Below, in pieces: positions 2 to 16,951 of a DNA stretch of 64,000 nucleotides. Position numbers and translations under genes: made by a program. Each line of letters opens with the position of its first letter. Positions within the stretch are counted from its first letter, which is position 1. The notes beneath the pieces were generated by a model, which made no database searches, was not told the origin of the DNA, and worked only from the letters and a program-made list of their open reading frames with translations. This stretch comes from Opitutus terrae PB90-1 (GTDB taxonomy: Bacteria > Verrucomicrobiota > Verrucomicrobiia > Opitutales > Opitutaceae): positions 3,171,001 through 3,235,000 of the forward strand of contig NC_010571.1 in the NCBI RefSeq assembly GCF_000019965.1, given 5' to 3'.

Positions 2-1114
2 GTGAACGGCGAATTTTTCCGCGTGGCGGGCGGCGAGGTGCACGAGGTGGCAGTGGGACCGGTGCACGCGGGCATCATCGAGCCCGGACATTTCCGTTTC
101 CAATGTGCGGGCGAGGAGGTGCTGCATCTGGAGATTGCGCTCGGCTATCAGCACCGTGGGATCGAGGCGGCGCTGGTGGGCGGGCCGCATCCGCGGACCG
201 AGCTGCAGATGCAGGTGGTGGCGGGTGACGCGTCGATTGCGCACAGCACGGCCCATGCGCTCGTCTCGGAAGTGCTCGCGGGGAGCGAGGCGCCGCTGCG
301 CGCGCAGTGGCTGCGGGCGATTGCACTCGAGCTCGAGCGGCTGGCGAATCACACCGGCGATCTGGGCGCGCTGGCGAACGACGTGGCGTTTCTGCCGACG
401 TCATCGGCGTGCGGGAAGATTCGCGGGGACTTTCTCAATCTCACGGCGCTGATCTGCGGGAACCGGTTTGGTCGCGGGCTGGTGCGCCCGGGCGGTTGCC
501 GTTACGAACTCGATCCGGCGCGGCTGGGCCAGCTGCGGGAACGGCTGAAGACCGCTTTGGACGACGTGGAGGCGGCGCTGGGCTGGTTGTGGGACGCGGC
601 GTCGGTGCGCGCGCGGTTCGAGGATGTCGGTGTGGTGAGCGACGAGCAGGCGGCGGAGATCGGCCTCGTGGGTCCGGCGGCGCGGGCGAGCGGATTGGTG
701 CGCGACGTGCGCTACGATCACCCGGCGGGCTGGCACCGGTTCGCGCAGATGCCGGTGGCGGTGTGGCCGGGTGGCGACGTGCTGGCGCGGGCCCGGGTGC
801 GTGCGCTCGAGATCCAGCGCTCCGGCGCGTTTATTTTGGAACAGCTCGGCGGCGCGCCCGAAGGTGAACTCGTCGCCACGCTGGATGCGCCAGCGGCCGA
901 CACGCTGTCGGTGGCATTGGTGGAAGGCTGGCGCGGCGAGGTGTGCCACGTGGCGTTGACCGATGTCGCGCGGCGGTTCCGATGCTACAAGATCGTCGAT
1001 CCGTCGTTCCACAACTGGACCGGGATGGCGCTCGCGCTGCGCGGACAGGCAATCTCGGATTTTCCGATCTGCAACAAGAGCTTCAACCTGTCGTATTGCG
1101 GGTTCGATTTGTGA
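2..1114 (+). CDS. Hydrogenase large-subunit/NuoD-like protein lacking NiFe ligands
   Basis: This protein resembles the HycE/HyfG/NuoD (49 kDa) family: near its start it has the typical GPVHAGIIEPGHFRF segment followed by LEIALGYQHRGIE. In active group 4 [NiFe] hydrogenases four Cys bind the metal site, in an N-terminal CGIC pair and a C-terminal DPCxxC pair. Here the first pair is replaced (VAGDASIAHS, both Cys are Ala), and the C-terminus reads DFPICNKSFNLSYCGFDL with no CxxC. A NiFe site is therefore not expected. GTG at position 2 is the first start in the window, but the family usually has more sequence upstream, so the 5' end may lie outside. The next gene, 134 bp downstream, encodes the matching small subunit, so this is probably the end of a membrane-complex operon. 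Family is confident; function is not known. Confidence 0.85.
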   Translation: MNGEFFRVAGGEVHEVAVGPVHAGIIEPGHFRFQCAGEEVLHLEIALGYQHRGIEAALVGGPHPRTELQMQVVAGDASIAHSTAHALVSEVLAGSEAPLRAQWLRAIALELERLANHTGDLGALANDVAFLPTSSACGKIRGDFLNLTALICGNRFGRGLVRPGGCRYELDPARLGQLRERLKTALDDVEAALGWLWDAASVRARFEDVGVVSDEQAAEIGLVGPAARASGLVRDVRYDHPAGWHRFAQMPVAVWPGGDVLARARVRALEIQRSGAFILEQLGGAPEGELVATLDAPAADTLSVALVEGWRGEVCHVALTDVARRFRCYKIVDPSFHNWTGMALALRGQAISDFPICNKSFNLSYCGFDL

Positions 1115-1133
1115 ACTCGAACCGGAGGAGATA

Positions 1134-1196
1134 CCACGAAACACACGAAAGACACGAAAGCACACCGGCCGCGAATCACGCGAATGACCGCGAATG
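1134..1196. repeat. Purine-rich intergenic micro-repeats
   Basis: Between the two hydrogenase-like genes lie short degenerate direct repeats: several ACACGAAA-type units (1134-1160), then GCGAAT units (1171-1196). They resemble the other simple purine-rich spacers of the window (25064-25120, 60130-60169, 62620-62706). No function can be read from them. Confidence 0.5.
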
Positions 1197-1248
1197 CGAC
1201 CGGAGATCTGCGGGCGGAAACGCGGCGCGAACAACCTGAATTCCAATC

Positions 1249-2106
1249 ATGTTTGTGGTCGATACACTGATTCACCGGCTGAAGCGCGGACGGGAAACGA
1301 TGGCGTTCCCGAACGGGCCGGCCCCGGCGCTGCCGGACCGGCACGGGGGTGCGTTGCGCGTTGACGCCTCGAAATGTGCCGACGGCTGCGCGGCGTGCGC
1401 GGAGGTGTGTCCGACGCAGGCCATCACCGTGGCGGATTCCAAGGTCGCACCACCCGGAATCACGGACGGGACGCCCGGGCCACGGGGGAATGCGTCCGCG
1501 CTCCCGAAGATTACGCTCGATCTGGGGCGCTGTGTGTTCTGTGCCGAGTGTGTGAAGACCTGTCCGGCGGGAGCGATCACGCAGACGGGCGATCATCGGA
1601 TGGCGGTGCGGCGGCGCGAGGATCTCGTGCTGGGCGCACCGGGGCAGGAGGAAGTGCGACTGGCGGCTGCGCTCGACGAAAAGCTGCGGAAGATGTTTGG
1701 CCGTTCGCTGCGGCTGCGCCAAGTGAGCGCCGGCGGCAGTGGCGCCGAGGAGGCGGATTTGAACGTGCTCGGGACGATCGGCTGGGATCTGGGCCGGTTT
1801 GGAATTCAGTTCGTCGCTTCGCCGCGGCACGCGGATGGCCTTGTCGTGACCGGGCCAGTTTCGAAAGGGATGGAGCTGGCGCTGCGGAAGACGTGGGAGG
1901 CGATGCCGGCGCCGAAGATCGTGATCGCGGTGGGCGCCGAGGCGATTTCGGGGGGCGTGTTTGCGGGCCATCCGCAGGTGCGGAACGGCGTGGATGCGAT
2001 CGTGCCCGTGGATCTCTACATTCCTGGCTGGCCGCCGCATCCGCTCACGATTTTGGATGGATTGCTGCGGTTGCTCGGGCGGTTGGAGGAAGACAGGCGC
2101 AGCTGA
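1249..2106 (+). CDS. Ferredoxin-NuoB-like fusion protein, proximal cluster ligands missing
   Basis: The 285-residue protein has two halves. Residues about 40-120 hold two ferredoxin motifs, CADGCAACAEVCP and CVFCAECVKTCP, which should bind two [4Fe-4S] clusters as in HycF/NuoI. Residues about 160-280 match the NuoB/HycG small subunit: a GGSGAEEAD segment, RFGIQFVASPRHADGLVVTG, then PKIVIAVGAEA and VPVDLYIPGWPPHP. The Cys that normally ligate the proximal (N2-type) cluster are absent in all three places (CxxC lost, GdCA is GAEA, PGCPP is PGWPP). Such subunits are known from hydrogenase-related complexes without an intact active site. The linker between the ferredoxin motifs contains a copy of an intergenic palindromic repeat (1464-1483). 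It probably pairs with the upstream large-subunit homologue on the cytoplasmic side of a membrane complex. Confidence 0.85.
   Translation: MFVVDTLIHRLKRGRETMAFPNGPAPALPDRHGGALRVDASKCADGCAACAEVCPTQAITVADSKVAPPGITDGTPGPRGNASALPKITLDLGRCVFCAECVKTCPAGAITQTGDHRMAVRRREDLVLGAPGQEEVRLAAALDEKLRKMFGRSLRLRQVSAGGSGAEEADLNVLGTIGWDLGRFGIQFVASPRHADGLVVTGPVSKGMELALRKTWEAMPAPKIVIAVGAEAISGGVFAGHPQVRNGVDAIVPVDLYIPGWPPHPLTILDGLLRLLGRLEEDRRS
1464..1483 (+). repeat. Half-copy of repeat family C inside a coding region
   Basis: This 20-base stretch differs at two positions from the intergenic repeat at 33857-33876 (core CGGGACGCCCG followed by GCCAC). It codes for part of a Gly/Pro-rich linker between two ferredoxin motifs, so it is tolerated in frame. 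Confidence 0.5.
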
Positions 2107-2120
2107 CAACGAACAGATAT

Positions 2121-2203
2121 GTAGGGCCACCGTTCACCGGCGGCCGGGAATGCCGGGAGAGCGGCAAGGGACATCCGCGGCCGGCGGCGAGCGCCGGCCC
2201 TAC
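2121..2203. repeat. Composite REP-like palindrome (family A), left of RAYT
   Basis: The element begins GTAGGGCC and ends GGCCCTAC. Its right half is a perfect hairpin: stem GGCCGGCG (2179-2186), loop GCGAG, stem CGCCGGCC (2192-2199). Its left half is a related hairpin in inverted orientation. It overlaps the last codon and stop of the RAYT gene, which is encoded on the minus strand. Confidence 0.8.
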
Positions 2204-2766
2204 GACACGTGAAGACGATTGCGAATGACTTCGCGCTCGCGCAACCACTCGCGAGGCGGCGTTCCGTCGGCATGGAGAAGAGGAAGAAACCGGCACGCGC
2301 TTGGCTCTGGACAATACCACCACGGCCAGCACGCCGTCGTCGGGATCAGCTTGGCTGCATACGGATTCATGAAGATGTAGAAGCGGTAGTCGTCGCGGGC
2401 TTCATCTGCACGCAGGCGATGTTCGAAGACATTGTCCTGCCACTCCCACGAAACGTGACGTCGTCGAGAGAGCGCCTTCAGTTTCGCCACGACTTGCATG
2501 AGCGAGAGACGTCCACCAAGGGGAAACAGGAGATGCACATGGTCGGGCATGATCGTGGCTGCGATGATCGAAGCGTCTCCGCGCTCATGCAGGTGCGATA
2601 AGGTCGAGATCAAACCGGTGGCCGAGCGTGACTCGGTCAAGACAGGCGCGCGGTGATGCACGCACGCCGTAACAAAATAGGTTGCTCCCGGCACGGAGAC
2701 ACGACCTGTCCGCAATCGCGCGGTCTGTCGCTGTGGGAGCAACATGAAAGAACTCTGACCCGCCAT
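2200..2766 (-). CDS. REP-associated tyrosine transposase (RAYT, Y1/IS200-like)
   Basis: The protein (188 aa from the chosen ATG at 2766; another ATG lies at 2745) carries the hallmarks of Y1 HUH single-strand transposases of the RAYT branch: the N-terminal motif PGATYFVTACVHHRAPVL, the metal-binding HVH in IMPDHVHLLFPLGG, and a catalytic-helix region YRFYIFMNPYAAKLI with candidate nucleophile Tyr. These enzymes are single-copy, domesticated relatives of IS200/IS605 transposases that act on REP palindromes. Here GGCCGGCG-type palindromes lie immediately on both sides, and the stop codon TAG is contributed by one of them. The reading frame continues upstream to 2823 through repeat sequence, so the farther start is unlikely. 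The gene appears intact. Whether it still moves the repeats cannot be told from one locus. Confidence 0.85.
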   Translation of the reverse strand: MAGQSSFMLLPQRQTARLRTGRVSVPGATYFVTACVHHRAPVLTESRSATGLISTLSHLHERGDASIIAATIMPDHVHLLFPLGGRLSLMQVVAKLKALSRRRHVSWEWQDNVFEHRLRADEARDDYRFYIFMNPYAAKLIPTTACWPWWYCPEPSACRFLPLLHADGTPPREWLREREVIRNRLHVS

Positions 2767-2786
2767 GGCGCTGAGAGCAAGTTCCC

Positions 2787-2811
2787 GGCCGGCGGCGAGC
2801 GCCGGCCCTAC
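2787..2811. repeat. REP hairpin, family A
   Basis: Perfect 8-bp stem GGCCGGCG (2787-2794) / CGCCGGCC (2800-2807) around loop GCGAG, followed by CTAC. It is identical to the right half of 2121-2203 and lies just upstream of the RAYT start. Confidence 0.75.
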
Positions 2812-2849
2812 GAATAGGAACAAGCAACCGGTCCGCCTAGTCAGGCGTC

Positions 2850-2932
2850 GTAAGGCCGCCGTTTACCGGCCGCCGAGAATGTGGAGTGCGCGTCGAAGGA
2901 CATTTGCGGCCGGCGGCGAGCGCCGGCCCTAC
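2850..2932. repeat. Composite REP-like palindrome (family A), right of RAYT
   Basis: Starts GTAAGGCC and ends GGCCCTAC. The right hairpin is at 2908-2928 with loop GCGAG; the left hairpin has loop TTTAC against TTCAC in the element at 2121. It has the same length as that element (83 bases). Confidence 0.75.
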
Positions 2933-2963
2933 AAGCAAAGGGACGCGCGGATGAGCGAACCAC

Positions 2964-5690
2964 TCACCCAAGCACGGCTTTCAGGACCTTGCCGAGGTCG
3001 GTGACGCGATAGGGCTTGGTCAGATAGCCGCAGAAGCCCATGTCGAGGAAGCGACGCGCCATGTCCTCGTTGTCGTAACCACTGGAGACGATCGCGCGCA
3101 CTTCCGGATCGAGGTCGCGGAGGGCCTTGAAACACTCCTCGCCGCCCATGCCGCCGACGACGGTGATGTCGAGCAGCGCGACGTCGTAGGGCCGGCCGAT
3201 GTTGAGGTAGCGTTTGTAGAGCTGAATCGCTTCCTCGCCGTTCTTCGCCAGGTCGAATTTGTAGTCGAGACTCTCGAGCATCGTCGCCGTGAGCTCGGAG
3301 AGTTTCGGGTCGTCGTCCATTAACAGGATTCGCCCCGTGCCAAAGCGCAGCGACGGTGCACGGCGCGCCTGCACCTCGACGGGCGCGTCGGCGCGTGGAA
3401 AGAACGCGGTGAACGCTGTTCCCGTGCCCACGACCGAGTCGACGGCGATCTGGCCGCCGTGCTTGCGGACGATGGAGAGCACCGTCGCGAGGCCGAGGCC
3501 GGTGCCGTGTTTCTTCGTCGTGAAGAACGGATCGAAGATTTTCTGGAGATTTTCCGGCGCGATCCCGCTGCCGTTGTCGCGCACCTCGATCTCGACGTAG
3601 TTCCCCTCGGCGAGCGGCGGAATCTGGTCGGCGGCAAGCGTGACGTTTTTCGCGGTGAGCTGCAGCTTCGCGCGATGCGGCTTCGGCGGCATCGCCTGGA
3701 GCGCGTTGACGATGAGGTTTTGAAAAACCTGCAGGATCTGCGCGCGATCGACGCGCACCGGATCGACGTTTTCGGTGAGGTTGACGGTGATCTCCGCGTC
3801 GGAACCGGCGGCGGCGATCTTCACCGCGTCCTGCAGGATTTCTTTCGGCGAAATCACGCTTTGCGAACCGGCGCCGCCCTTGGCGAACGCGAGCAGCTGC
3901 TTGGTCAAGCCCTTCGCGGTGAGGCAGGCTTTTTCGCAATCCTCGAGGGCGGAGTAATTGCGGTTGTCCTTGGCGAGCGACACGCCGGCGAGGATGGTAG
4001 CGAGGAGATTGTTGAAGTCGTGTGCGATGCCGCCGGCGAGCAGGCCGAGCGATTCGAAGCGATTCGCCTTCACCAGTTCTTCCGGCGTGAGGCTCATCTC
4101 GCCGGGGTCGCGGAAGACGATCACCACGCCGCGCGGGTTGTTCTCGGCGTCCTTGGAGGCGCGCGCGGTCCAGACGATCGGCAGCGCCGTTTCCGCGGGC
4201 GAGGAGGCCGCATCGGTGGCCGCGGGCGGTCGCGCGCCCACGACCAGCGCGTGGTCGCTGAACAGCGGCAGCGGCTGGTCGGCGCCGAGCGCGCGATCGC
4301 ACGGATCGTCGCCGGGCCGGCCACTCTCGCGGTGCACGAGCTGGAAAACATCCGCGACGGCGGCGCCGACGATCTCGTCGGGCTTGCGCGCGAGCAATCG
4401 CACGGCGGCGGGATTGGCGTGGAGAATCCGGCCTGTGGCGTCGGTGACGAGGACGCCCTCGGCGAGGGCCGCGAACGCATCCTGCGCGAGCCCGGCGCCG
4501 AGCCCGTCGTCGCTGCCGGCGCTGCGCGGCGTGAGCGTGGGCGCGGTGCAGATGAAGCCGATGATGCGGGCGAGATCGCGCTTGCGCGTGAGCGTGCGGT
4601 GTGCGCCGAGGAGCACGGGCACGCGCTGGCCGTCCTTGCCGACGAGCTCCTCGGCGAGCACGAAGGTATTTTGTCCCGGCGCGAGCAACAGCAGCCAGGT
4701 TTCCACGCCGCCGGGAATTTCGTCGGCGGGCAACACGGCGGCCAGCGTCTCCAGCGTGTCGGCCAGCTCGTCGTCGCGGTAGCCGAGAATCTTTTTCCAG
4801 GCGGGCGAGAACCAGAAGGACTTCGCGGTAAAATCGAGGTCGAACGCGCCAAGCGGACCGCCGCCGAGCGTCTCCATGCGCTCGTCGTTGGCGAGGCTCG
4901 CTTCCTCGATCTCCTTGCGCTCGGAGACATCGAGGTTGAGTCCGACCACGCGCTCGAGCTGGCCGGTGGCGTTCAGCACCTGCACGCCGACGCACTGCAC
5001 CCAGACCCAGTGGCCGAGCCGGTGGCGCATGCGAAACTCGACGCTGAACGGTCGTGCGCCGGCGGCGGGTTTGCGACCGACCTGATCCGGCGCGGCGCCG
5101 GAGTCGTCGGGATGAATGAGCTCACGCCAGGTCTCGAGCGTATCCGGCAACTCGGCATCGACGTAGCCGAGCATCTTTTTCCACGAGCGGGAGTAGGTCG
5201 CGCGGTTGGTGATCAGGTCGAGGTCGAAGAAACCCGCGGCGCCCTGTTCGGCGACGAGTTGGTAGGCGCTGCCGTCGCCGTTCGCGCTGGGGGCCGTCGG
5301 TGCGGCCGCCGGAGGTTGGACGGTCGCAAGGAAAAAGGTTTCGGAAAAACGCTCCAGGCGCACCTGCACCGCGCGGGGCGCGCCGTCGCGCGGCTGCGCG
5401 TCGAGTGTGGCGGTGCGATCGAGCGTGGCGTCGCGCAGGACTTCCCACTGGGCTTCGAACCACTCGGGTCCGTCGGCGACCACCTCGAAGGCGAACAGCG
5501 AGGCGAACGGCTCGCCGATCAGTCCGCCCTCGGCGGCCTGCCAGAGCGCGCGGGCGCTCGCGGAGGCGCCGGTGATGCGGCCGTGGGAGTCGAGCAGGAG
5601 GACGGCGGCGACATCGGCCGCGGCGAGGCGGTGGGCGGCGGGATCGGTGGATGGGCGCGGCTCGTTCAACGGTGACTCGCTTGTAGCCAA
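2964..5690 (-). CDS. Multi-PAS hybrid histidine kinase with C-terminal receiver
   Basis: A 908-residue signalling protein without obvious membrane segments. After about three PAS/PAC units (residues ~20-480) comes a phospho-acceptor helix with GGIAHDFNN (His557), an HATPase domain (N-box NALQAMP, G-boxes DNGSGIAP and GTGLGL) and a receiver domain whose phospho-acceptor is probably Asp841 (ALLDITV) with a conserved Lys in LTKPY. This is the CheA-independent, NtrB-like hybrid kinase type. The first in-frame start is TTG at 5690, which overlaps the end of hemH by 25 bases; no ATG or GTG follows before the first PAS domain, so translational coupling to hemH is possible. It is a paralogue of the larger kinase at 7045-12078. 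The signal sensed is unknown. Confidence 0.85.
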   Translation of the reverse strand: MATSESPLNEPRPSTDPAAHRLAAADVAAVLLLDSHGRITGASASARALWQAAEGGLIGEPFASLFAFEVVADGPEWFEAQWEVLRDATLDRTATLDAQPRDGAPRAVQVRLERFSETFFLATVQPPAAAPTAPSANGDGSAYQLVAEQGAAGFFDLDLITNRATYSRSWKKMLGYVDAELPDTLETWRELIHPDDSGAAPDQVGRKPAAGARPFSVEFRMRHRLGHWVWVQCVGVQVLNATGQLERVVGLNLDVSERKEIEEASLANDERMETLGGGPLGAFDLDFTAKSFWFSPAWKKILGYRDDELADTLETLAAVLPADEIPGGVETWLLLLAPGQNTFVLAEELVGKDGQRVPVLLGAHRTLTRKRDLARIIGFICTAPTLTPRSAGSDDGLGAGLAQDAFAALAEGVLVTDATGRILHANPAAVRLLARKPDEIVGAAVADVFQLVHRESGRPGDDPCDRALGADQPLPLFSDHALVVGARPPAATDAASSPAETALPIVWTARASKDAENNPRGVVIVFRDPGEMSLTPEELVKANRFESLGLLAGGIAHDFNNLLATILAGVSLAKDNRNYSALEDCEKACLTAKGLTKQLLAFAKGGAGSQSVISPKEILQDAVKIAAAGSDAEITVNLTENVDPVRVDRAQILQVFQNLIVNALQAMPPKPHRAKLQLTAKNVTLAADQIPPLAEGNYVEIEVRDNGSGIAPENLQKIFDPFFTTKKHGTGLGLATVLSIVRKHGGQIAVDSVVGTGTAFTAFFPRADAPVEVQARRAPSLRFGTGRILLMDDDPKLSELTATMLESLDYKFDLAKNGEEAIQLYKRYLNIGRPYDVALLDITVVGGMGGEECFKALRDLDPEVRAIVSSGYDNEDMARRFLDMGFCGYLTKPYRVTDLGKVLKAVLG

Positions 5691-6703
5691 GTACGGACGC
5701 GGTTGGCGAGAAAATCGATGAACGGCGGCTGGTCGTTGAGGCAGGGAATCTGCGTAAAGGATTCACCGCCGGCCTGCACGAACGTCTCCTTCCCCGCGAC
5801 GCTGATCTCCTCGAGCGTCTCGAGGCAGTCGGAGAGGAAGGCGGGACAGAGCACGAGAATTCGTTTGATGCCAGCCTTCGCGAGCCGTTCCAACTCGTGG
5901 TCGGTGTAGGGCGACAGCCAGGGTTCGCCGACCAGGCGCGACTGGAACGAAACGGAATGGCGGTCGGGCGCCAGGCCGGCGCGGGCGGCGAGTGCGCGCG
6001 TCGTGGCGAACACTTGGGCGCGGTAACAGGTGGCGTGAACGGGCGAGGGCGTGTTGCAGCAGTCGTTCACAATCTGGCAGTGCGCGTGCGAGGAGTCGGC
6101 CTTGCACAGGTGGCGGACCGGGATGCCATGGTAGCTGAACAGCACGTAGTCGTGCGGCTGGGCGAAGTAGGGCGCGGAGACCGCGTGCAACGCTTCGATG
6201 TAGTCCGCGTCATCGAAGAAAGGCTGCACCGTGGTCACGCGCAACTGCGGCGCCTGGCGTGCGGCTTCCTCGTAAACCTTCACCACGACGGTTTCCCACG
6301 AGGACATCGCGTAATGCGGATACTGCGGGATCAGGAGCAGTTCGCTGACGCCGTCGGCGACGATCTGGCCGAGGACCGAGGCGATCGATGGCTGCCCGTA
6401 CCGCATCGCGAGGTAGACGGGCGTCTCGGGGCCGAGAGTGGCGGCGAGCTTTTGCTGGACGTTGCGCGAGGTGATGATCAGCGGCGAGCCGTCCTTGGTC
6501 CAGATCTGCTCGTAGGCGTGCGCGGAATTGGGCGAACGCCGCGGTACGATGATGCGATGCACCAGGATCGAACGGAACGGCTGCGCCGGCCGATCGATGA
6601 CGCGCTCATCGCCGAGAAACTCATCGAGGTAACGCCGGACGTCGGGGACGGAGGTGGAATCGGGCGAGCCGAGGTTGACGAGAAGGACCGCGCGGTTGGG
6701 CAT
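5666..6703 (-). CDS. hemH: Ferrochelatase with internal cysteine cluster
   Basis: HemH inserts Fe2+ into protoporphyrin IX, the last step of haem synthesis. The 345-residue protein has the conserved start RAVLLVNLGSPD, the catalytic SYHGIP (His192), FQSRLVGEPWLSPYTD and CLETLEEI near residue 295. Between residues 200 and 226 it carries five Cys (CKADSSHAHC, then CC and C). This is the arrangement described for the class of bacterial ferrochelatases that bind a [2Fe-2S] cluster through an internal Cys segment, as in Myxococcus. The C-terminus has no Cys. The start ATG at 6703 fits the family. It is followed by, and overlaps, a PAS histidine kinase, and is divergent from another one. Confidence 0.95.
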   Translation of the reverse strand: MPNRAVLLVNLGSPDSTSVPDVRRYLDEFLGDERVIDRPAQPFRSILVHRIIVPRRSPNSAHAYEQIWTKDGSPLIITSRNVQQKLAATLGPETPVYLAMRYGQPSIASVLGQIVADGVSELLLIPQYPHYAMSSWETVVVKVYEEAARQAPQLRVTTVQPFFDDADYIEALHAVSAPYFAQPHDYVLFSYHGIPVRHLCKADSSHAHCQIVNDCCNTPSPVHATCYRAQVFATTRALAARAGLAPDRHSVSFQSRLVGEPWLSPYTDHELERLAKAGIKRILVLCPAFLSDCLETLEEISVAGKETFVQAGGESFTQIPCLNDQPPFIDFLANRVRTWLQASHR

Positions 6704-7044
6704 GCGGCGGAGATTGGTCGTTGGAACGTTGTGAAAGTCAAACGACGATGGTGGGAACGCGATCGGGAGGAACGGCCGCGACGGCGATCGAGCGCGGGTG
6801 CGACCGCGGGACCGGTCGTCCGCTCCGCGCCCGCAGGTACGCTTTTCGACGAGCCGCGAGAGCCGCGCGATCGCTTTTTTCCCGTCGGCTCACGGACGCG
6901 TTTCGCGAAGGGGGCGGCATTGCGGCGAAAACACTGCTGGGGCCCGCGGCAGAAGCCTCGCGCTGGATGTAAATTGGTTGTTCAAGTTGAACCCTGAAAT
7001 ACCGATAGTTTGCGCGTTTAATTGTTGGTCGTTACTCAGAAACG
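6704..7044. other. Intergenic region between divergent hemH and PAS kinase
   Basis: This 341-base spacer should hold the promoters of hemH (leftwards) and of the giant PAS kinase (rightwards). The last ~80 bases (from about 6960) are noticeably less GC-rich than their surroundings. I could not identify a convincing -35/-10 pair, riboswitch or repeat. Confidence 0.4.
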
Positions 7045-10000
7045 GTGAATTTGCACCCGCTGCGCGATATCAAGGCTTTCGGCGCCTCACCGAAAGGGGG
7101 CGGGTGCGTTCGCGCTGGTCTGGCGGCGGCGTTGTTCGCGCCGGTGCGAAGCCCGGCGGCGGAACCGGTGCTGGCGGGATTCACCGGGAGCGGCTGGTGG
7201 CTGGCGGCCGCGTTGGTCGTTGCTGCAGCCGTGGTGACGTGGCTGATCACGAAAGCGATCGGGCGGCGCACCGCCGGTCAGGCGGGCCAGCTGAAGTCGC
7301 TGCTGGAGTTCGCCAACTGCCTGCTGTGGGAAGCGCGCGTGGAATTGCAGGGTGACGCGTTGAAGTGGGACGTCTCGCTGCAATCGACCGCGCTCGCGCA
7401 GCAGCTCTTCGGTCACCTGCCGCCGCGGCCCGACGAAGGACTGTGGGACCGCTTCGAGGTGCCGGAGCGCGAGGAGATGGAGGCCCGCTGCCGGACGGCA
7501 CTGCGCGAGCGGCGTTCGCACTACGAACACCAATTCAGTTTCGTGCGCGAGGGCCGGCCGGTGTGGCTGCGGGAAAGCGTCACGGTCACGCCGGAGAGCG
7601 GCAATCGGTTTCACCTCGTCGGATTGGTGACGGACGTCACCCGCCAACGGGAGACGGAACTCGCGCGGCGCGCGAGCGAGGAGCGCGTGCGGCAACTGTT
7701 GTCGCGGTCGGACTGCATGCTGTGGGAAGCGCGCGTGCGGCAGGACGAGGCGGGGGCGTTTCACTGGGACTGGTTCATCCCGAAATCCGAACTCTACCGG
7801 AGACTGGTGGGCGAGGCAGGTGGGCCGAATCGGATGCCCTGGGATGCGTCGATCGTGCCGGAGTACGGCGAGATCGAGGCCCGCGCGAAGAGCGCGATGC
7901 GGGAAGGCCGTGACGGTTACGAGCAGGAGTTTCGGGTGGTGGCGAACAACTCCGTGTTGTGGATGCACGAGCAGGTGGTGGTCAAAGCGCTCAGCCCGCG
8001 CGAGTGGATGCTGCAGGGCGTCGTGATCGACATCACGGTGCAGCGGCAGGCGGAGGAATCGAAACGCGCGAGCGAGGCGCAGCTCCAGCAGGTGATGGGG
8101 ACGGCGGATTTTCTTTTGTGGCACGCGCGGGTGTTTGTCGGACCGGATGGTCGAATGCAGTGGGTGTTGAACGTGCCGGGTTCGACGCTGTATCGCCGGC
8201 TGTTCGGACGGGATCCGCAGCACCCGCTGGCGCTGCCGTGGAATCAGCTGGTCAGCGCAGACGTGTATGCGCAGATGGACGCGCGGTCGGCGCATGCGAT
8301 CAAAACAGGCGCCGAAGGTTACGAGCAGGAATTTCCGGCCCGCCGGGGCAGCGAGGAATTCTGGCTGCGCGAGCAGGCGACGATCCGGGCGGTGGGGCCC
8401 GGCGAGTGGCAGGTGGTGGGCATCGTCACCGACGCGACGACACGGCACCTGGCCGAGGAGGCGCGGTTGGCGAGCGAACGCGCGCTGCGGGAGATTCTCG
8501 AGCGCGCGGGCTGTCTGCTCTGGCGCGCGACGGTGATGCGGACCGAAGAGGGCGTGCGGTGGACGGAGTTTGAGATGCCGGCCTCGCGACTGAGCACGGA
8601 AATTTTTGGAGGGCGGATGCCGACGCGGTCGGACCAGCTGTGGGATTATGCGGAAGTGCCCGATCTGGCGCAGATGAACGTGGTGAGCACGCGGGCGCTG
8701 CTGTCGGGGTCGCAAGGTTACGAGCAGGAATTTCGGGCGGTACAGGGCGACCGGCTGTTCTGGTTGCACGAGCAGGTGGCGATCACGAAGACCGGGCCGG
8801 ACGAATGGCACGCGGTGGGTGTGGTCACGGACGTGACGCAGCGCCACCTCGCCCAAGAGGCGCAGCGGCAAAGCGAAGTACGGCTCGAGGAGTTGCTGCG
8901 CACGGCCGACTGCCTGATCTGGCAAGGCGAGGTGTCACTGCGCAGCGATGGCACGCTCGAGTGGGTGTTGTATGTGCCGCGGTCGCGGCTGTTCCGCCGC
9001 ATCTTCGGGCATGATCCGCAGGGCAAGGTGATCCGCTGGGACGAGGTGCGCGTGCCGGAGTTGCCGGAGATGCAGCGCACCGCGCGCATGGCGCTGTCGA
9101 GCGGCCATCCGGGCTATGAGCAGGTGTTCCACGTGCCGAAGCCGAATGGCGACATCTGGGTGACGGAGCAGGTGACGATCAGTCCGGCCGGTCCGCAACG
9201 GTGGAGCGTGGTCGGCGTGATTACCGACATCACGGCGCGGCGCGAGGCGGAGGAGGCGCGGCGGACCACCGAGGCGCAACTGCAGCAGATCCTCGAGCTG
9301 GCGGATTGCATGGTCTGGCAGGCGACCATCACGGAGCACGAAGACGGGGAACTGGACTGGAAATTGTTCACGCCGAATTCCGTGCTTTACCGCCGGTTGT
9401 TTGGCGACGGCGAAGGCGAGCCCGAGATGGGCTGGGACCGGCTCGATGTGCCGGAGCACGCGGAGATGCACGAGCGCGCCACCGCGGCGATTCGTCGGCG
9501 CGATCCCGGCTACGAGCAGGAGTTCCGGGTCGTGCTGCCGCAGGGCGTGGTCTGGCTGCGCGAAGTGGTGACGGTGACGGGCCTCGACGAGCACCGCTTC
9601 CGGCTCGTCGGCGTGATCACCGACATCACGGCGCAACGCGAGGCGCAGGAGGCGTATCGCGCGAGCGTGGCGCAGGTGGAGCAGATGCTGGTGGCGGCGG
9701 ATTGCACGCTGTGGCAGGCGCGGGTGTTTGAGGTGGCGCCGCGGCAGTTGCGTTGGGTGATGTTTGTCCCGCGCTCGCGGTTGTACCGGGAGCTGTTCGG
9801 CCGCGATCCGTCCCCGCCGGCGGGGCTGCCCTGGACGGAGGTGACCGACGCGGCTACGCGGGCGGAGATCGACCGGCACGCGACGGAAGCGATCCTCGGC
9901 GAGCAGCCGGCCTATGAGCAGGAATTCCGCGCCCAACGCGGCGCGCGAGCGTTCTGGCTGCATGAGCAGGTGTCGATCACGCCGATCGGCCCCGGCGAGT

Positions 10001-12078
10001 GGCGGCTGGTGGGCGTGATGACCGACATGACGGCGCGACGCGAAGCCGAGCAGGCGGTACGGGCGTCGGAGCTGCGGTATCGCACGCTTTTCCAGCACAT
10101 GCCCGTGGCGATCATTGAAATCGATTTTAGCGAAGTCGGGCGCTGGCTGGCGTCGGTGCGGGCGCGAGGCATCACCGACCTGAGCGCGTGGTTACGGGCG
10201 CATCCGCGGGAGTTGCTGCGGCCCGCGCGGTTGATTCGCGTGCTGGACTGCAACGATACCGCGATGGACGTGCTGCGCGCGACCGGCCCGAGCGACTTCC
10301 GCCGGCGGCGGATGCGGCTGGCCACGCCGGACATGATGGAGCTGGTGCGTTCGGCGATCCTGTGCCTGTGGGACGAGCGGAACACGCTCGAGGCCGAGGT
10401 GGAGATGCGCGACTTCGAAGGCGGCCTGCACGAGATGAACGTGCGATGGTGGATGGAGCTCACCGAGGAGGGGCTCGATTTCCGGCAATCGGTGCTGGTG
10501 CTCGTCGACCTCACCGAGCTCAAGCAGGCCGAGGCGGCGCTCGCGGCGGAGAAAGAGCGGCTCGCGGTGACGTTGCGCGCGATGGCGGAAGGCGTGATCA
10601 CGACGGACGTCGAAGGTCGGGTGCAGTTCATCAACGACGCGGCGGTGTCGTTCACGCAGTGGGAAGCCAGCGCGGCGATCGGGCGGCCGGTGCAGGAGGT
10701 CTGCCTGCTCGAGAACGATCGCACCGGCGAACGCGTGGAGATGCCGGTCGCGCGGGTGGGCCGCGGCGACGTGGTGATGGATCTGCCGCCCCGCACACGG
10801 TTGGTGCGACGCGACGGCGCGAGCCGGCTGGTCGAAGGCTGCTGCGCGCCGATCCACTCGGCGGTGAGCAAGGTGATCGGGACGGTCTTCGTGTTCCGCG
10901 ACGTGACGGAGCACGAGCGGCTCGAACAGGAGCTGGTCCGGGCGACGAAGCTGGAATCCGTCGGAATTCTCGCCGGCGGCATCGCGCACGATTTCAACAA
11001 CATCCTGACGGCGGTGATGGGCAACGTGGCGCTGGCGGGACTCGACGTGGATCCCGAGTCGGAGGCCGCCCGCAGTCTGCGCGAAGCCGAGAAGGCTACG
11101 CTGCGGGCGCGCGATCTCACGCAGCAGCTGCTGACCTTCGCGAAGGGCGGCGAACCGGTGCGCGCGGCGGTGCAACTGGGCGGGACCGTGCACGAGATCG
11201 TCACGTTCACCCTGCACGGCTCGAAGGTGCGCGCGGCCTACGACATTCCGGACGATCTCTGGCCGGCCGACGTCGACAAGGGCCAGATCGGGCGCGTGGT
11301 TCAAAACCTCGTGCTCAACGCGGTGCAGGCAATGCCGGAGGGCGGCACGGTGTCGATCGCGCTGCGGAACGAGCGGATCGAAGGCTATTCGCAGGTGGCG
11401 CTGGCCCCGGGCGACTATGTGCGGATTGCGATCGCCGACACGGGCGTCGGCATTCCGCCGGAACACCTGCCGCGGATCTTCGACCCGTATTTCAGCACGA
11501 AGCCGATGGGCAGCGGACTGGGGCTCGCGGCCGTTTACTCGATCGTCAACAAACACCGCGGCGGCATCGACGTGAAGTCCCAAGTCGGCAAGGGCTCGAC
11601 GTTCACCATCTGGCTGCCGGCGTCGCACGACCAGGCGGCGGACGAGAGTCCGAACATGCCCGTGACGCGGACGACGGTACTCAAGGGCCGCGTCCTCTTC
11701 ATGGACGACGAGGAGCCGATTCGCGAGATGGCGGTGTTTCTGTTGCGCCGGCTGGGCATGGAGGTCGAATGCGCGGCGGATGGAGCCGAAGCGGTGCACA
11801 AGTACGAGGAGGCGCGGGCCGCGGGGAATCCGTTCGCGCTTGTGATCATGGACCTCACGGTGCCTGGCGGGATGGGCGGCCGCGAGGCGATCGGACAATT
11901 GCGCGCGCTCGATCCGAACGTGCGCGCGGTCGTATCGAGCGGTTATTCGAGTGATCCGGTGCTGGCGAACTATCGCGAGCATGGTTTCTGCGGCGTGGTG
12001 GCGAAGCCGTACGAAGTCGCGGATCTTGCGCGGGTGCTGCGCTCGGTGCTGGGCGGAAGCAACGGCGTGGCGGAATAA
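7045..12078 (+). CDS. Giant hybrid histidine kinase with seven tandem PAS units
   Basis: A 1677-residue protein with an N-terminal hydrophobic segment (about residues 50-72, GWWLAAALVVAAAVVTWLI). Then follow seven consecutive units of about 132 residues, each opening with a C/F-x-L/I/V-W-x-A/G motif (residues 92, 224, 356, 490, 623, 755, 887) and closing with a PAC-like GVITDIT.. segment. Two more PAS-type domains follow (from ~1011 and ~1170), then a His-box GGIAHDFNN (His1315), HATPase (NAVQAMP, DTGVGIPPEH, GSGLGLAA) and a receiver with Asp1603 (VIMDLTVPGG) and Lys in AKPYE. It should autophosphorylate and pass phosphate to its own receiver. The GTG start at 7045 has no clear ribosome site, so the exact N-terminus is uncertain. 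The C-terminal half is paralogous to the kinase at 2964-5690. Confidence 0.9.
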   Translation: MNLHPLRDIKAFGASPKGGGCVRAGLAAALFAPVRSPAAEPVLAGFTGSGWWLAAALVVAAAVVTWLITKAIGRRTAGQAGQLKSLLEFANCLLWEARVELQGDALKWDVSLQSTALAQQLFGHLPPRPDEGLWDRFEVPEREEMEARCRTALRERRSHYEHQFSFVREGRPVWLRESVTVTPESGNRFHLVGLVTDVTRQRETELARRASEERVRQLLSRSDCMLWEARVRQDEAGAFHWDWFIPKSELYRRLVGEAGGPNRMPWDASIVPEYGEIEARAKSAMREGRDGYEQEFRVVANNSVLWMHEQVVVKALSPREWMLQGVVIDITVQRQAEESKRASEAQLQQVMGTADFLLWHARVFVGPDGRMQWVLNVPGSTLYRRLFGRDPQHPLALPWNQLVSADVYAQMDARSAHAIKTGAEGYEQEFPARRGSEEFWLREQATIRAVGPGEWQVVGIVTDATTRHLAEEARLASERALREILERAGCLLWRATVMRTEEGVRWTEFEMPASRLSTEIFGGRMPTRSDQLWDYAEVPDLAQMNVVSTRALLSGSQGYEQEFRAVQGDRLFWLHEQVAITKTGPDEWHAVGVVTDVTQRHLAQEAQRQSEVRLEELLRTADCLIWQGEVSLRSDGTLEWVLYVPRSRLFRRIFGHDPQGKVIRWDEVRVPELPEMQRTARMALSSGHPGYEQVFHVPKPNGDIWVTEQVTISPAGPQRWSVVGVITDITARREAEEARRTTEAQLQQILELADCMVWQATITEHEDGELDWKLFTPNSVLYRRLFGDGEGEPEMGWDRLDVPEHAEMHERATAAIRRRDPGYEQEFRVVLPQGVVWLREVVTVTGLDEHRFRLVGVITDITAQREAQEAYRASVAQVEQMLVAADCTLWQARVFEVAPRQLRWVMFVPRSRLYRELFGRDPSPPAGLPWTEVTDAATRAEIDRHATEAILGEQPAYEQEFRAQRGARAFWLHEQVSITPIGPGEWRLVGVMTDMTARREAEQAVRASELRYRTLFQHMPVAIIEIDFSEVGRWLASVRARGITDLSAWLRAHPRELLRPARLIRVLDCNDTAMDVLRATGPSDFRRRRMRLATPDMMELVRSAILCLWDERNTLEAEVEMRDFEGGLHEMNVRWWMELTEEGLDFRQSVLVLVDLTELKQAEAALAAEKERLAVTLRAMAEGVITTDVEGRVQFINDAAVSFTQWEASAAIGRPVQEVCLLENDRTGERVEMPVARVGRGDVVMDLPPRTRLVRRDGASRLVEGCCAPIHSAVSKVIGTVFVFRDVTEHERLEQELVRATKLESVGILAGGIAHDFNNILTAVMGNVALAGLDVDPESEAARSLREAEKATLRARDLTQQLLTFAKGGEPVRAAVQLGGTVHEIVTFTLHGSKVRAAYDIPDDLWPADVDKGQIGRVVQNLVLNAVQAMPEGGTVSIALRNERIEGYSQVALAPGDYVRIAIADTGVGIPPEHLPRIFDPYFSTKPMGSGLGLAAVYSIVNKHRGGIDVKSQVGKGSTFTIWLPASHDQAADESPNMPVTRTTVLKGRVLFMDDEEPIREMAVFLLRRLGMEVECAADGAEAVHKYEEARAAGNPFALVIMDLTVPGGMGGREAIGQLRALDPNVRAVVSSGYSSDPVLANYREHGFCGVVAKPYEVADLARVLRSVLGGSNGVAE

Positions 12079-12237
12079 CGCCGACGGCGGAAGAGGTCGA
12101 GGTCGCGGAATAAAGGCGCGGTCGCTACCAAGGGCGGCCCGGATGTGCATTATTTGACCGCGGTCCGGGCAAAGCGTGCAGAGAGTTTTGCCTTTCGTCC
12201 GCGGATCGTCGTGTCTTCCGTGTTGATCCGAATATCC

Positions 12238-13824
12238 ATGAGCACCTCGCGCAAACCTGTCCTCCTTGTGATCCGTGATGGTTGGGGCAAGAACCCCGAC
12301 CCGAAGCAAAACGCGACCAACGCGGTGCACCTGGCGCAGAAGCCCTGTGACGATCGGCTGCATGCGACCTTCCCGCACACGCTGGTCAAGGCGAGCGGAC
12401 TGGACGTGGGTCTGCCGGATGGCGTGATGGGCAACAGCGAAGTCGGACACGAGAACATCGGCGCCGGCCGGATCGTCGACCAGGAGCTGGTGCGGTTGAA
12501 CAAGCTTTTTTCCGAAAAACGGCTGGCGACGAATTCGGTCTGGCGGGCGGCGGTCGAGCGGGTGAAGAGCCGCGGCGGCAAACTGCACCTGATGGGCATC
12601 GTGAGCGATGCCGGGGTGCATGGGATGCTGGAGCATCTTTACGGCATCCTGCGGCAGGCGAAGGCGGATGGGCTTGGCGCGAACCAGGTCTTCATCCACG
12701 CGTTCACCGACGGCCGCGACACGCCGCCGCAGAGCGGGCTGGGCTACGTGAAACAGGTGGAAATGAAGTGCCGAGAAATCGGTGTCGGCAAAATCGCGAC
12801 GGTCTGCGGGCGGTTCTGGGCGATGGATCGCGACAACCGCTGGGAACGCGTACAAAAAGCCTATGACATGCTGACCGGCCGGAAGGCGATGGCGACGGCG
12901 GCAAGCGCGGTGGCGGCGGTGGAGAACTATTACGCGAATCCGCTCAGCGAAACGCAGAAGGGCGACGAGTTCGTGACCGCCACGCAGATCGTTGACGCGA
13001 AGGGCCAGCCGCTGGCCACGATCGGCAACGGCGACGCCGTGCTGTTCTACAACTACCGCGGCGACCGGCCGCGCGAGCTGACGAAAGCGTTCGTGCTGGA
13101 TGATTTTAGCGGGTTCGATCGCGGCGCGAAGCTCGACCTCTACTACGCCACGATGACCGAGTATGAGACCGGGCTGCCGGTGAACGTCATCTCGCCGAAG
13201 CCGGAGAAGTTGAAGAACATCCTCGGCGAGGTGGTCGCAAAGGCGGGCATCGCGCAGTTCCGCTGCGCGGAGACGGAGAAGAACCCGCACGTGACGTTCT
13301 TCTTCAACAATTATCGCAAGGAGCCGTTTGCGGGCGAAGACCGGGCGTGTCCGGCAAGCCCGAAGGTGCCGACGTATGATCTCGCGCCGGAGATGTCCGC
13401 CGCCGAGGTGACGAAGGCCGCCAAGGAGGCGATCCTCTCGGGCAAATACGGGCTGATCGTCGTGAACTTCGCCAACCCCGACATGGTCGGGCACACGGGC
13501 TCGCTGCCGGCGGCGATCAAGGCGGTCGAGGCGACGGACCGCGGCGTCGGCGAGTTGCTGGCGGCGCTGGAGCAGAAACACGGATACGCGGTGATCCTCG
13601 CGGATCACGGCAATGCCGAGCAGATGTGGGATCCGAGTGTCAACGGCCCGCACACGGCGCACACGCTGAACCTCGTGGAGCTGTTCGTGGTCGGCGAAGG
13701 CTATGCGGCGGGGAAGACCAGGATGCGGACCGGCGGCCGGCTGGCGGACGTGGCGCCGACGGTGCTGCACCTGATGGGCCTGCCGAAACCGGCGGAGATG
13801 ACCGGCGAGAGCCTCATCGCCTGA
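12238..13824 (+). CDS. gpmI: 2,3-bisphosphoglycerate-independent phosphoglycerate mutase
   Basis: GpmI interconverts 3- and 2-phosphoglycerate in glycolysis using two Mn2+ ions. The 528-residue protein starts PVLLVIRDGWG, has the catalytic Ser in MGNSEVGHENIGAGR, the substrate-site segment HAFTDGRDTPP, the GDRPRELT motif, and the metal-binding DMVGHTG and DHGNAEQMWD plus HTAHT segments. Length and order are those of the family. The reading frame opens earlier (12145), but ATG at 12238 gives the conserved N-terminus. A 57-residue reading frame follows after 4 bases and may be co-transcribed. Confidence 0.97.
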   Translation: MSTSRKPVLLVIRDGWGKNPDPKQNATNAVHLAQKPCDDRLHATFPHTLVKASGLDVGLPDGVMGNSEVGHENIGAGRIVDQELVRLNKLFSEKRLATNSVWRAAVERVKSRGGKLHLMGIVSDAGVHGMLEHLYGILRQAKADGLGANQVFIHAFTDGRDTPPQSGLGYVKQVEMKCREIGVGKIATVCGRFWAMDRDNRWERVQKAYDMLTGRKAMATAASAVAAVENYYANPLSETQKGDEFVTATQIVDAKGQPLATIGNGDAVLFYNYRGDRPRELTKAFVLDDFSGFDRGAKLDLYYATMTEYETGLPVNVISPKPEKLKNILGEVVAKAGIAQFRCAETEKNPHVTFFFNNYRKEPFAGEDRACPASPKVPTYDLAPEMSAAEVTKAAKEAILSGKYGLIVVNFANPDMVGHTGSLPAAIKAVEATDRGVGELLAALEQKHGYAVILADHGNAEQMWDPSVNGPHTAHTLNLVELFVVGEGYAAGKTRMRTGGRLADVAPTVLHLMGLPKPAEMTGESLIA

Positions 13825-13828
13825 GCCC

Positions 13829-14002
13829 ATGAACCTCGACGACCTGATGGCGGAAGGCGAACTGGCGCTGTCGGTGGACGGCGACGATGGCGTCATCCGC
13901 CTGAAGGCTCGGGCGACGTTTGACGAGCCGGTGGAGTTGTCGGCCGATGCGGCCCGAGAACTCGCACAGCGGCTGATCGAACTGGCGGACGAGATCGGAT
14001 AG
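13829..14002 (+). CDS. Small acidic hypothetical protein (57 aa)
   Basis: ATG at 13829, four bases after the gpmI stop, opens a frame of 57 codons ending in TAG. The product is acidic (MNLDDLMAEGELALSV..., ..LIELADEIG) and appears to combine a beta-like segment (ALSVDGDDGVIRLKARATF) with a C-terminal helix (SADAARELAQRLIELADEI). No family is recognised. Close spacing to gpmI, clean codon use and the convergent neighbour downstream make a real gene plausible. Confidence 0.5.
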   Translation: MNLDDLMAEGELALSVDGDDGVIRLKARATFDEPVELSADAARELAQRLIELADEIG

Positions 14003-14021
14003 GCGCCCGTGGCGGGTCCGC

Positions 14022-16685: not shown

Positions 16686-16951
16686 CGGACAAGCCGCGTA
16701 GCGCCGGGGTTTGGTGGATCGGGCAGGGGCCGAAGCGCGGCGGCGCGCTATTTTCACTCGTGCGCGGGTCGGAGAGGCGATGCTTTCCCGCGCCTAAACG
16801 CCGCAAACGATCATCGGGAATTCACCGGTTCGCGGTGGGTTCGGGCGCAGGCGTATCCGAAGCGTTTGCGGACGGCCGAGTTCCATGGCCAAGAGTTGTG
16901 CTTGCCCCCGGGGCGGCGGGTTGGCTTGCTCACAAACTCGTTTCTCCACGC

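Follow-up and report, generated by a model that had tools for sequence, protein, structure and literature searches.

What is left for a complex I-like enzyme to do when the redox centres at its core have lost their ligands? The question is raised by two adjacent genes at the start of a 64,000-nucleotide stretch of the Opitutus terrae PB90-1 genome (contig NC_010571.1, positions 3,171,001 to 3,235,000; the window), which encode EhrL and EhrS, the large and small subunits of an energy-converting-hydrogenase-related (Ehr) complex. The genome, G000 in our sample, is a single contig of 5,957,605 bases, in which the window is G000:C1:3171001-3235000. The 15 kb lying 5' of the window was added to form locus L007; a window position equals the L007 position minus 15001. 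An initial annotation had held that EhrL is without both NiFe cysteine pairs and that EhrS is without any proximal-cluster cysteine, and alignment bore this out (Table 1). The ferredoxin motifs of EhrS, which it described as well kept, retain 8 of 8 cysteines.

The nearest solved relatives by sequence are HycE for EhrL and HycG for EhrS (formate hydrogenlyase subunits 5 and 7). The predicted model of EhrS has a mean predicted local distance difference test score of 84.7 and resembles NuoB-type chains such as MbhJ (6cfw_J; template modelling score of 0.86, by target length). EhrS was compared with 35 sequences that keep the cluster ligands (keepers), comprising 25 from the family of the window genome and 10 from near GTDB loci. 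It deviates at 5 of the 107 columns that are invariant among the keepers. Four of these five columns are the proximal ligands, which argues that their loss is not due to chance.

The family is the family group of the window genome, taken as Opitutaceae. We searched 252 family genomes with the large subunit of a second Ehr gene set in L007 (LSU_A; E 1e-60), and the hits were typed by identity and neighbours as A or B, the latter being the type of EhrL and EhrS. Matches were obtained in 42 genomes: 36 carry B, 10 carry A and 4 carry both (G000, G131, G148 and G222). Written as the residues at ligands 1 to 4, 25 of the 36 B carriers read C-C-C-C, 10 have lost two to four ligands and 1 is frameshifted (L158). 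All four ligands are lost in L007 and L175 (both S/E/E/W), L150 (N/E/D/W), L164 (D/D/A/W), L167 (D/D/G/W) and L171 (D/A/D/W); the loss is partial in L165 (D/A/C/W), L174 (D/V/C/W), L156 (C/E/S/W) and L152 (C/A/C/W). These ten genomes overturned a view drawn from the first 9 relatives, namely, that the loss is unique to the window's genome. They span five genus groups, of which g6, g38 and g41 also hold C-C-C-C forms; the EhrS gene lineage therefore does not simply track genera, and the mixture hints that the operon was transferred horizontally or underwent lineage sorting. Within this one family, cluster-keeping and cluster-less EhrS orthologues are about 71-78% identical.

Five of the best 80 GTDB loci depart from C-C-C-C. 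Three are the same records as family genomes G120, G140 and G222, and the remaining two are a Methylococcaceae locus (L066), with Ser at ligand 4 only, and a planctomycete locus (L100; N/E/E/W). In the planctomycete order of L100, EhrS was found in 11 of 45 genomes (E 1e-40). Five of these read C-C-C-C, and ligands are missing in the other six: G622, to which L100 belongs (N/E/E/W), G645 (N/E/D/W), G640 (D/A/C/S), G666 (D/E/S/F), G635 (D/A/D/N) and G646 (D/A/S, with the fourth position past the contig end). Scanning DNA for the Trp-bearing form gave 1 of 387 in Verrucomicrobiota (G000), 1 of 392 in Planctomycetota (G622) and 2 of the 45 genomes of L100's order; such PGWPP pattern scans undercount losses, because only forms with Trp at ligand 4 are detectable. 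The Methylococcaceae EhrS (L066:10001-10831) keeps the three other cysteines and has an extra one nearby (RQVCAGGC), and is perhaps an early or compensated loss.

A quick tree was built from the joined small and large subunits of 84 rows with the ligand columns blanked; 67 of the 84 read C-C-C-C. The family loss rows, ten in all, group as a single clade (Shimodaira-Hasegawa-like approximate likelihood ratio test, 95), and the six planctomycete loss rows lie far from it, requiring two changes on the tree. A single clade for all 16 loss rows was rejected (333.6 log units; approximately unbiased test, P = 4.97e-5). Cysteine was found at the four NiFe positions in 0 of 82 B-type large subunits (one gapped) and 0 of 10 A-type ones. 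NiFe loss and proximal-cluster loss are separate events, and the annotation's treatment of the two as one dismantling had to be given up. Judged from the sequences, the proximal-cluster loss is derived, newer and rarer, having occurred in one family gene lineage and independently in planctomycetes. Whether the cysteine losses are fixed in relatives, as the annotation had asked, has a divided answer: the NiFe loss is common to every aligned A- and B-type EhrL, whereas the proximal loss is seen in 10 of the 36 family carriers and 6 of the 11 planctomycete carriers.

The genes were also predicted to be under selection, and this selection is purifying. The ratio of nonsynonymous to synonymous substitution rates (dN/dS) was estimated with a custom codon-likelihood script on 20 family sequences and a joined-protein tree, the optimiser stopping at a fixed step number. 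For ehrS, dN/dS did not differ between keepers (0.063) and the loss clade (0.055; twice the log-likelihood difference [2dlnL], 1.6), and was 0.051 on the G000 branch. A tree of EhrS only, in which the loss rows are not one clade, gave 0.063 for keepers and 0.046 for loss rows (2dlnL, 6.8); the joined-protein tree superseded it. For ehrL, the values were 0.063 in keepers, 0.059 on the other loss branches and 0.121 on the G000 branch (2dlnL, about 8). In EhrS, 91 of the 107 keeper-invariant columns are unchanged in all ten family loss rows; the four most changed are the proximal ligands (altered in 10, 10, 8 and 7 of the 10 rows), followed by columns altered in 3 of 10. In EhrL, 99 of 110 such columns are unchanged and none is altered in more than two rows. 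Decay to a pseudogene is ruled out by the low dN/dS and the unchanged invariant columns. Nor are the relatives decaying pseudogenes, a possibility the annotation had raised against itself, the single frameshifted carrier apart.

Its other safeguard, a search for alternative conserved ligands, revealed none at the four proximal positions among the loss rows. Two other EhrS positions do change with the loss. Residue 199 is Val in every family and planctomycete loss row (10 of 10 and 6 of 6) and in 3 of 67 keepers; Leu at residue 171 occurs in 9 of 10, 6 of 6 and 6 of 67, respectively. These convergent changes would fit a vacant cluster site around which the protein has repacked. Across the 16 loss rows, all 127 readable ferredoxin ligand positions still carry Cys (one further position is lost to a contig end). 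The membrane arm was assessed at the 68 charged positions that 93% or more of the keepers share, using 16 loss rows for hyfB and 10 for the other genes. G000 keeps 68 of 68, and 63 of 68 are kept in every loss row; the exceptions are hyfB K243 (13 of 16) and hyfC E124, hyfE E156 and D204, and hyfF H37 (each 9 of 10).

In EhrL, the Asp of the DPC motif is replaced, by Asn491 in nearly all Ehr rows. Arg440 is conserved in 82 of 82 rows and, by offset reckoning from the alignment, appears to match the canopy arginine described for HycE (PMC9474812). Alternative cysteines, which the annotation had named as a possible objection, do exist in EhrL, but they lie off the NiFe positions and are common to cluster-keepers. 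Six near-invariant cysteines (Table 1), a possible cofactor or thiol site, occur in each of the 15 loss rows that have an EhrL and in 61 to 66 of the 67 keepers.

Because selection maintains the rest of the complex, including the ion path, despite the cluster loss, we propose that the B-type Ehr complex is an ion-translocating machine without a proximal cluster, gated rather than electron-driven, and we give this reading a probability of about 0.5. Its starting point would be the loss from EhrS of the proximal [4Fe-4S] cluster, the equivalent of complex I N2. Electrons entering the ferredoxin clusters would then be unable to reach the EhrL cavity at a catalytic rate, and these two clusters would be a dead end, since the proximal cluster would be gone from the relay. 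The membrane path for H+ or cations would be retained, freed from electron drive, and its gating might come from the redox state of these dead-end clusters, from the operon's EIIA protein or from both. The non-redox or conformational use that the annotation put forward is, like this proposal, conjectural. The clusters of formate hydrogenlyase are described as one relay with gaps under 14 Å, and a mutated complex I without N2 is reported to assemble and to show no quinone reduction (PMC9474812 and PMC8042128, respectively). A role of Ehr in pH homeostasis, suggested for a verrucomicrobial methanotroph (PMC6688271), is compatible with gated ion transport. We advance more tentatively, at odds clearly below even, the wider notion that Ehr was converted in at least two phyla from an electron-driven machine to a gated ion transporter, with the ferredoxin clusters as redox sensor and a phosphorylatable EIIA maybe as a second input.

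The main rival holds that the complex is still a redox enzyme, its ferredoxin-cluster electrons bypassing the proximal site to reach an unseen cofactor in EhrL, for instance on the six cysteines. The complete retention of ferredoxin ligands speaks for it, as do the presence of the six cysteines in every loss row and the standing of EhrL among the best-conserved parts; moreover, contested complex I mutants are described with apparent quinone reduction and no detected N2 (PMC8042128). However, the six cysteines occur equally in cluster-keeping Ehr and are therefore no replacement, and no new ligand accompanies the loss. The relay of the homologous formate hydrogenlyase relies on gaps under 14 Å (PMC9474812); without a proximal cluster, the last gap would become about twice as long. 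We regard this explanation as possible but rather unlikely. Another explanation would be a proximal cluster still bound by Glu, Asp, Ser or Asn. Ligands 1 to 3 are often acidic or polar, but the residues are variable (ligand 2, E/A/D/V; ligand 3, E/D/A/G/S/C) and the Trp or Phe at ligand 4 is unable to ligate iron, making this very improbable.

Alternatively, the proximal cluster may have become useless after NiFe loss, its ligands drifting under relaxed constraint while the complex functions like other Ehr. The ligand residues differ by lineage, some rows retain one or two cysteines, the Methylococcaceae locus has Ser at ligand 4 only and the EhrL branch of G000 is accelerated, all as drift would have it. 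Against drift, C-C-C-C is found in 62 of 67 rows of the tree set and in all sampled phyla outside the two loss groups, all without NiFe; since these rows keep the ligands without NiFe, the proximal cluster is apparently needed in Ehr as a rule. In addition, all ten family loss rows have Trp at ligand 4, L199V and 171L are convergent across both phyla, and S-E-E-W or N-E-E-W was arrived at in both. We consider relaxed constraint improbable, though less so than a dependence of EhrL and EhrS on the A complex, which is encoded within their operon and has a small subunit that retains the proximal ligands. Such a partnership is favoured by the nested arrangement of the two gene sets in G000 and G148 and by their opposite losses (A retains the proximal ligands and has lost ferredoxin cluster I, B the reverse). 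It is disfavoured, and most unlikely in our judgement, given that 7 of the 10 family loss genomes have no A match at E 1e-60 and that planctomycete contig L195 has only a B-type operon.

Several points weigh against the gated-transporter reading. Synonymous sites are near saturation in the dN/dS estimates, the tree is a quick one, and the loss sequences other than that of the window genome come mostly from draft assemblies of many contigs. EhrL is mildly accelerated in G000 only, where relaxation is possible. One or two proximal cysteines persist in four family loss rows out of ten and, among the planctomycetes, in at least one. Electrons may still pass, because all ferredoxin ligands are retained, and contested older complex I mutants, apparently without N2, are said to have kept part of their activity (PMC8042128). 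Finally, EIIA and the membrane arm are no mark of a new function, because both are common to cluster-keeping operons.

ehrL and ehrS are the 3'-most of 12 Ehr genes on the same strand (Table 1). By Pfam and NCBIfam, the genes of the run match NuoL/HyfB-, NuoH-, HyfE-, HyfF-, NuoC/D- and ferredoxin-plus-NuoB-like families; no NADH-module gene was found in the L007 gene run. The run is two operons, A inside B, and the B set has four NuoL/NuoH/NuoN-like membrane genes of its own upstream of ehrL and ehrS; the NuoH/NuoL-like genes that the annotation suggested looking for 5' of the pair are thus present. The B set stands alone in other relatives, often as hyfB - EIIA - hyfB - C - E - F - LSU_B - SSU_B (e.g., L038-L043), and the A set alone in others (L047 and L048). 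The A operon lies between hyfF1 and LSU_B in G000 (L007:7043-14619) and G148 (L150), and directly upstream of the B operon, not nested, in G131. G121 carries a broken SSU_A remnant immediately 5' of LSU_B (L170:7955-8292), and G222 carries a hyfF1 fragment and EIIA upstream of the A operon (L153:10312-11561); because of these remnants, the nesting seems to be older and to have been undone repeatedly. The extra hyfB that commonly precedes EIIA in relatives was not found in G000 (L182 and L007:1-1835), where the 20 kb further upstream held no match to operon proteins. A protein with a helix-turn-helix and a phosphotransferase system (PTS) EIIA domain accompanies many B-type Ehr operons in several phyla. 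Its PH-motif His, which we take to be the phosphorylation site as in PTS EIIA proteins, is present in 80 of 80 rows. Clustering of neighbours gave no candidate for a gene specific to loss operons, the clusters being mostly overlapping-frame artefacts.

The sibling small subunit upstream, SSU_A, keeps all four proximal ligands. The A-type small subunits (10 of 10 rows) combine retained proximal ligands with the loss of those for ferredoxin cluster I, opposite to the B type here. Cluster I ligands are also lost in B-type rows L126 (Elusimicrobia) and L121 (Omnitrophota). A dispersed palindromic repeat lies in frame within ehrS (window 1461-1484), between the ferredoxin motifs and at the protein's long insert; its 18-base core has 36 exact copies in the genome. 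Just 3' of the operon, on the minus strand (window 2200-2823), inspection by eye suggests a frame resembling an IS200/repetitive extragenic palindrome-associated transposase (MPDHVHLLF), with GC-rich repeats on both flanks.

Table 1. Features of the Ehr gene run in the window and in locus L007
Feature	Window position	L007 position	Strand	Description
HTH-EIIA		854-1555		
hyfB1		1836-3824		
hyfC1		3847-4896		
hyfE1		4893-5534		
hyfF1		5604-7046		
hyfB2		7043-9094		
hyfC2		9091-10035		
hyfE2		10032-10700		
hyfF2		10705-12186		
LSU_A		12183-13778		
SSU_A		13780-14619		
ehrL (LSU_B)	2..1114	14616-16115	+	3' part of 499-aa NuoC/D-like (HycE-like) large subunit; likely start 386 bases 5' of window
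EhrL Cys C164	104-106			near-invariant
First NiFe CxxC (CGxC) position	221..232		+	reads A-G-D-A by alignment
EhrL Cys C266	410-412			near-invariant
EhrL Cys C281	455-457			near-invariant
EhrL Cys C444	944-946			near-invariant
EhrL Cys C486	1070-1072			near-invariant
C-terminal DPCxxC position	1085..1102		+	reads N-L-S-Y-C-G by ungapped alignment to HycE 'SLDPCY'
EhrL Cys C495	1097-1099			near-invariant
ehrS (SSU_B)	1249..2106	16250-17107	+	285-aa fusion of two-cluster ferredoxin domain and NuoB/HycG-like domain
Ferredoxin motif 1	1375..1410		+	C43, C47, C50, C54; intact
Ferredoxin motif 2	1531..1563		+	C95, C98, C101, C105; intact
Proximal ligand 1	1738..1740		+	Ser164; Cys in keepers
Proximal ligand 2	1747..1749		+	Glu167; Cys in keepers
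Proximal ligand 3	1939..1941		+	Glu231; Cys in keepers
Proximal ligand 4	2029..2031		+	Trp261, as in all 10 family loss rows; Cys in keepers

The Ehr-type identity suggested by the annotation is supported by the gene set, by the NiFe-less large subunit and by placement in the same tree as Geomonas/Geobacter loci (L091 and L118). Published Ehr systems (Geobacter EhrA-1/C/L/S, GSU0739-45; Methylacidiphilum ehrABCDLS) are described with the same kind of gene set and a NiFe-less hydrogenase-related large subunit (PMC6349859, PMC7894505, PMC10284858, PMC6688271), the absence of NiFe ligands being given as their hallmark (PMC6349859, PMC10284858). Antiporter-like and NuoH-like membrane subunits are likewise encoded alongside the window pair. 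Four proximal cysteines in the small subunit, a usual feature of Ehr that lies outside the definition as the cited accounts present it, are absent here. EhrS from Geomonas/Geobacter loci with the same operon is 50-53% identical to the window EhrS, but keeps all four proximal ligands (L091, L094, L118 and L128), whereas the window EhrS has none. Ehr complexes are already known, and we found no report of a natural Ehr or complex-I-like complex without the proximal cluster among the open-access papers searched; relative to these, the natural loss and its convergence are new.

A coupling of ion translocation to turnover in the cavity next to N2 is described as a widespread belief for the complex I superfamily (PMC9474812). 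Natural removal of an N2-type cluster more than once, with the pump parts kept, makes the need for the electron step testable in a natural system, and keeper and loser EhrS orthologues from the same family enable comparison. The recurrence suggests that such machines can be useful without the central electron step; if the proposal is true, these would be natural members of the complex I family that retain the entire pump but have dropped the electron step believed to power it. The role of Ehr has been called unknown or never investigated (PMC10284858, PMC7894505), and the loss lineages offer a handle on these complexes of obscure role.

Formate hydrogenlyase/hydrogenase-4 (HycE, HycG and HycF; group 4 NiFe hydrogenases) provides the closest solved relatives, with the same fold. 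The window pair differs in being without NiFe and proximal ligands and in having the ferredoxin domain fused to the small subunit; EhrL is without the two NiFe-binding Cys pairs by which group 4 NiFe hydrogenases are recognised. Respiratory complex I (NuoB/NuoD) has homologous small, large and membrane subunits. Among its N2 ligands, a tandem Cys pair is reported (PMC8042128); the motif in Ehr keepers is instead CxxC. In contrast to complex I, EhrS is without N2 ligands and the gene run is without an NADH module. In Mrp cation/proton antiporters, antiporter-like subunits move ions without a redox arm, and by analogy the Ehr B complex may work in a similar manner. Unlike Mrp, which has no EhrL/EhrS arm, the complex encoded here has that arm, and it is strongly conserved.

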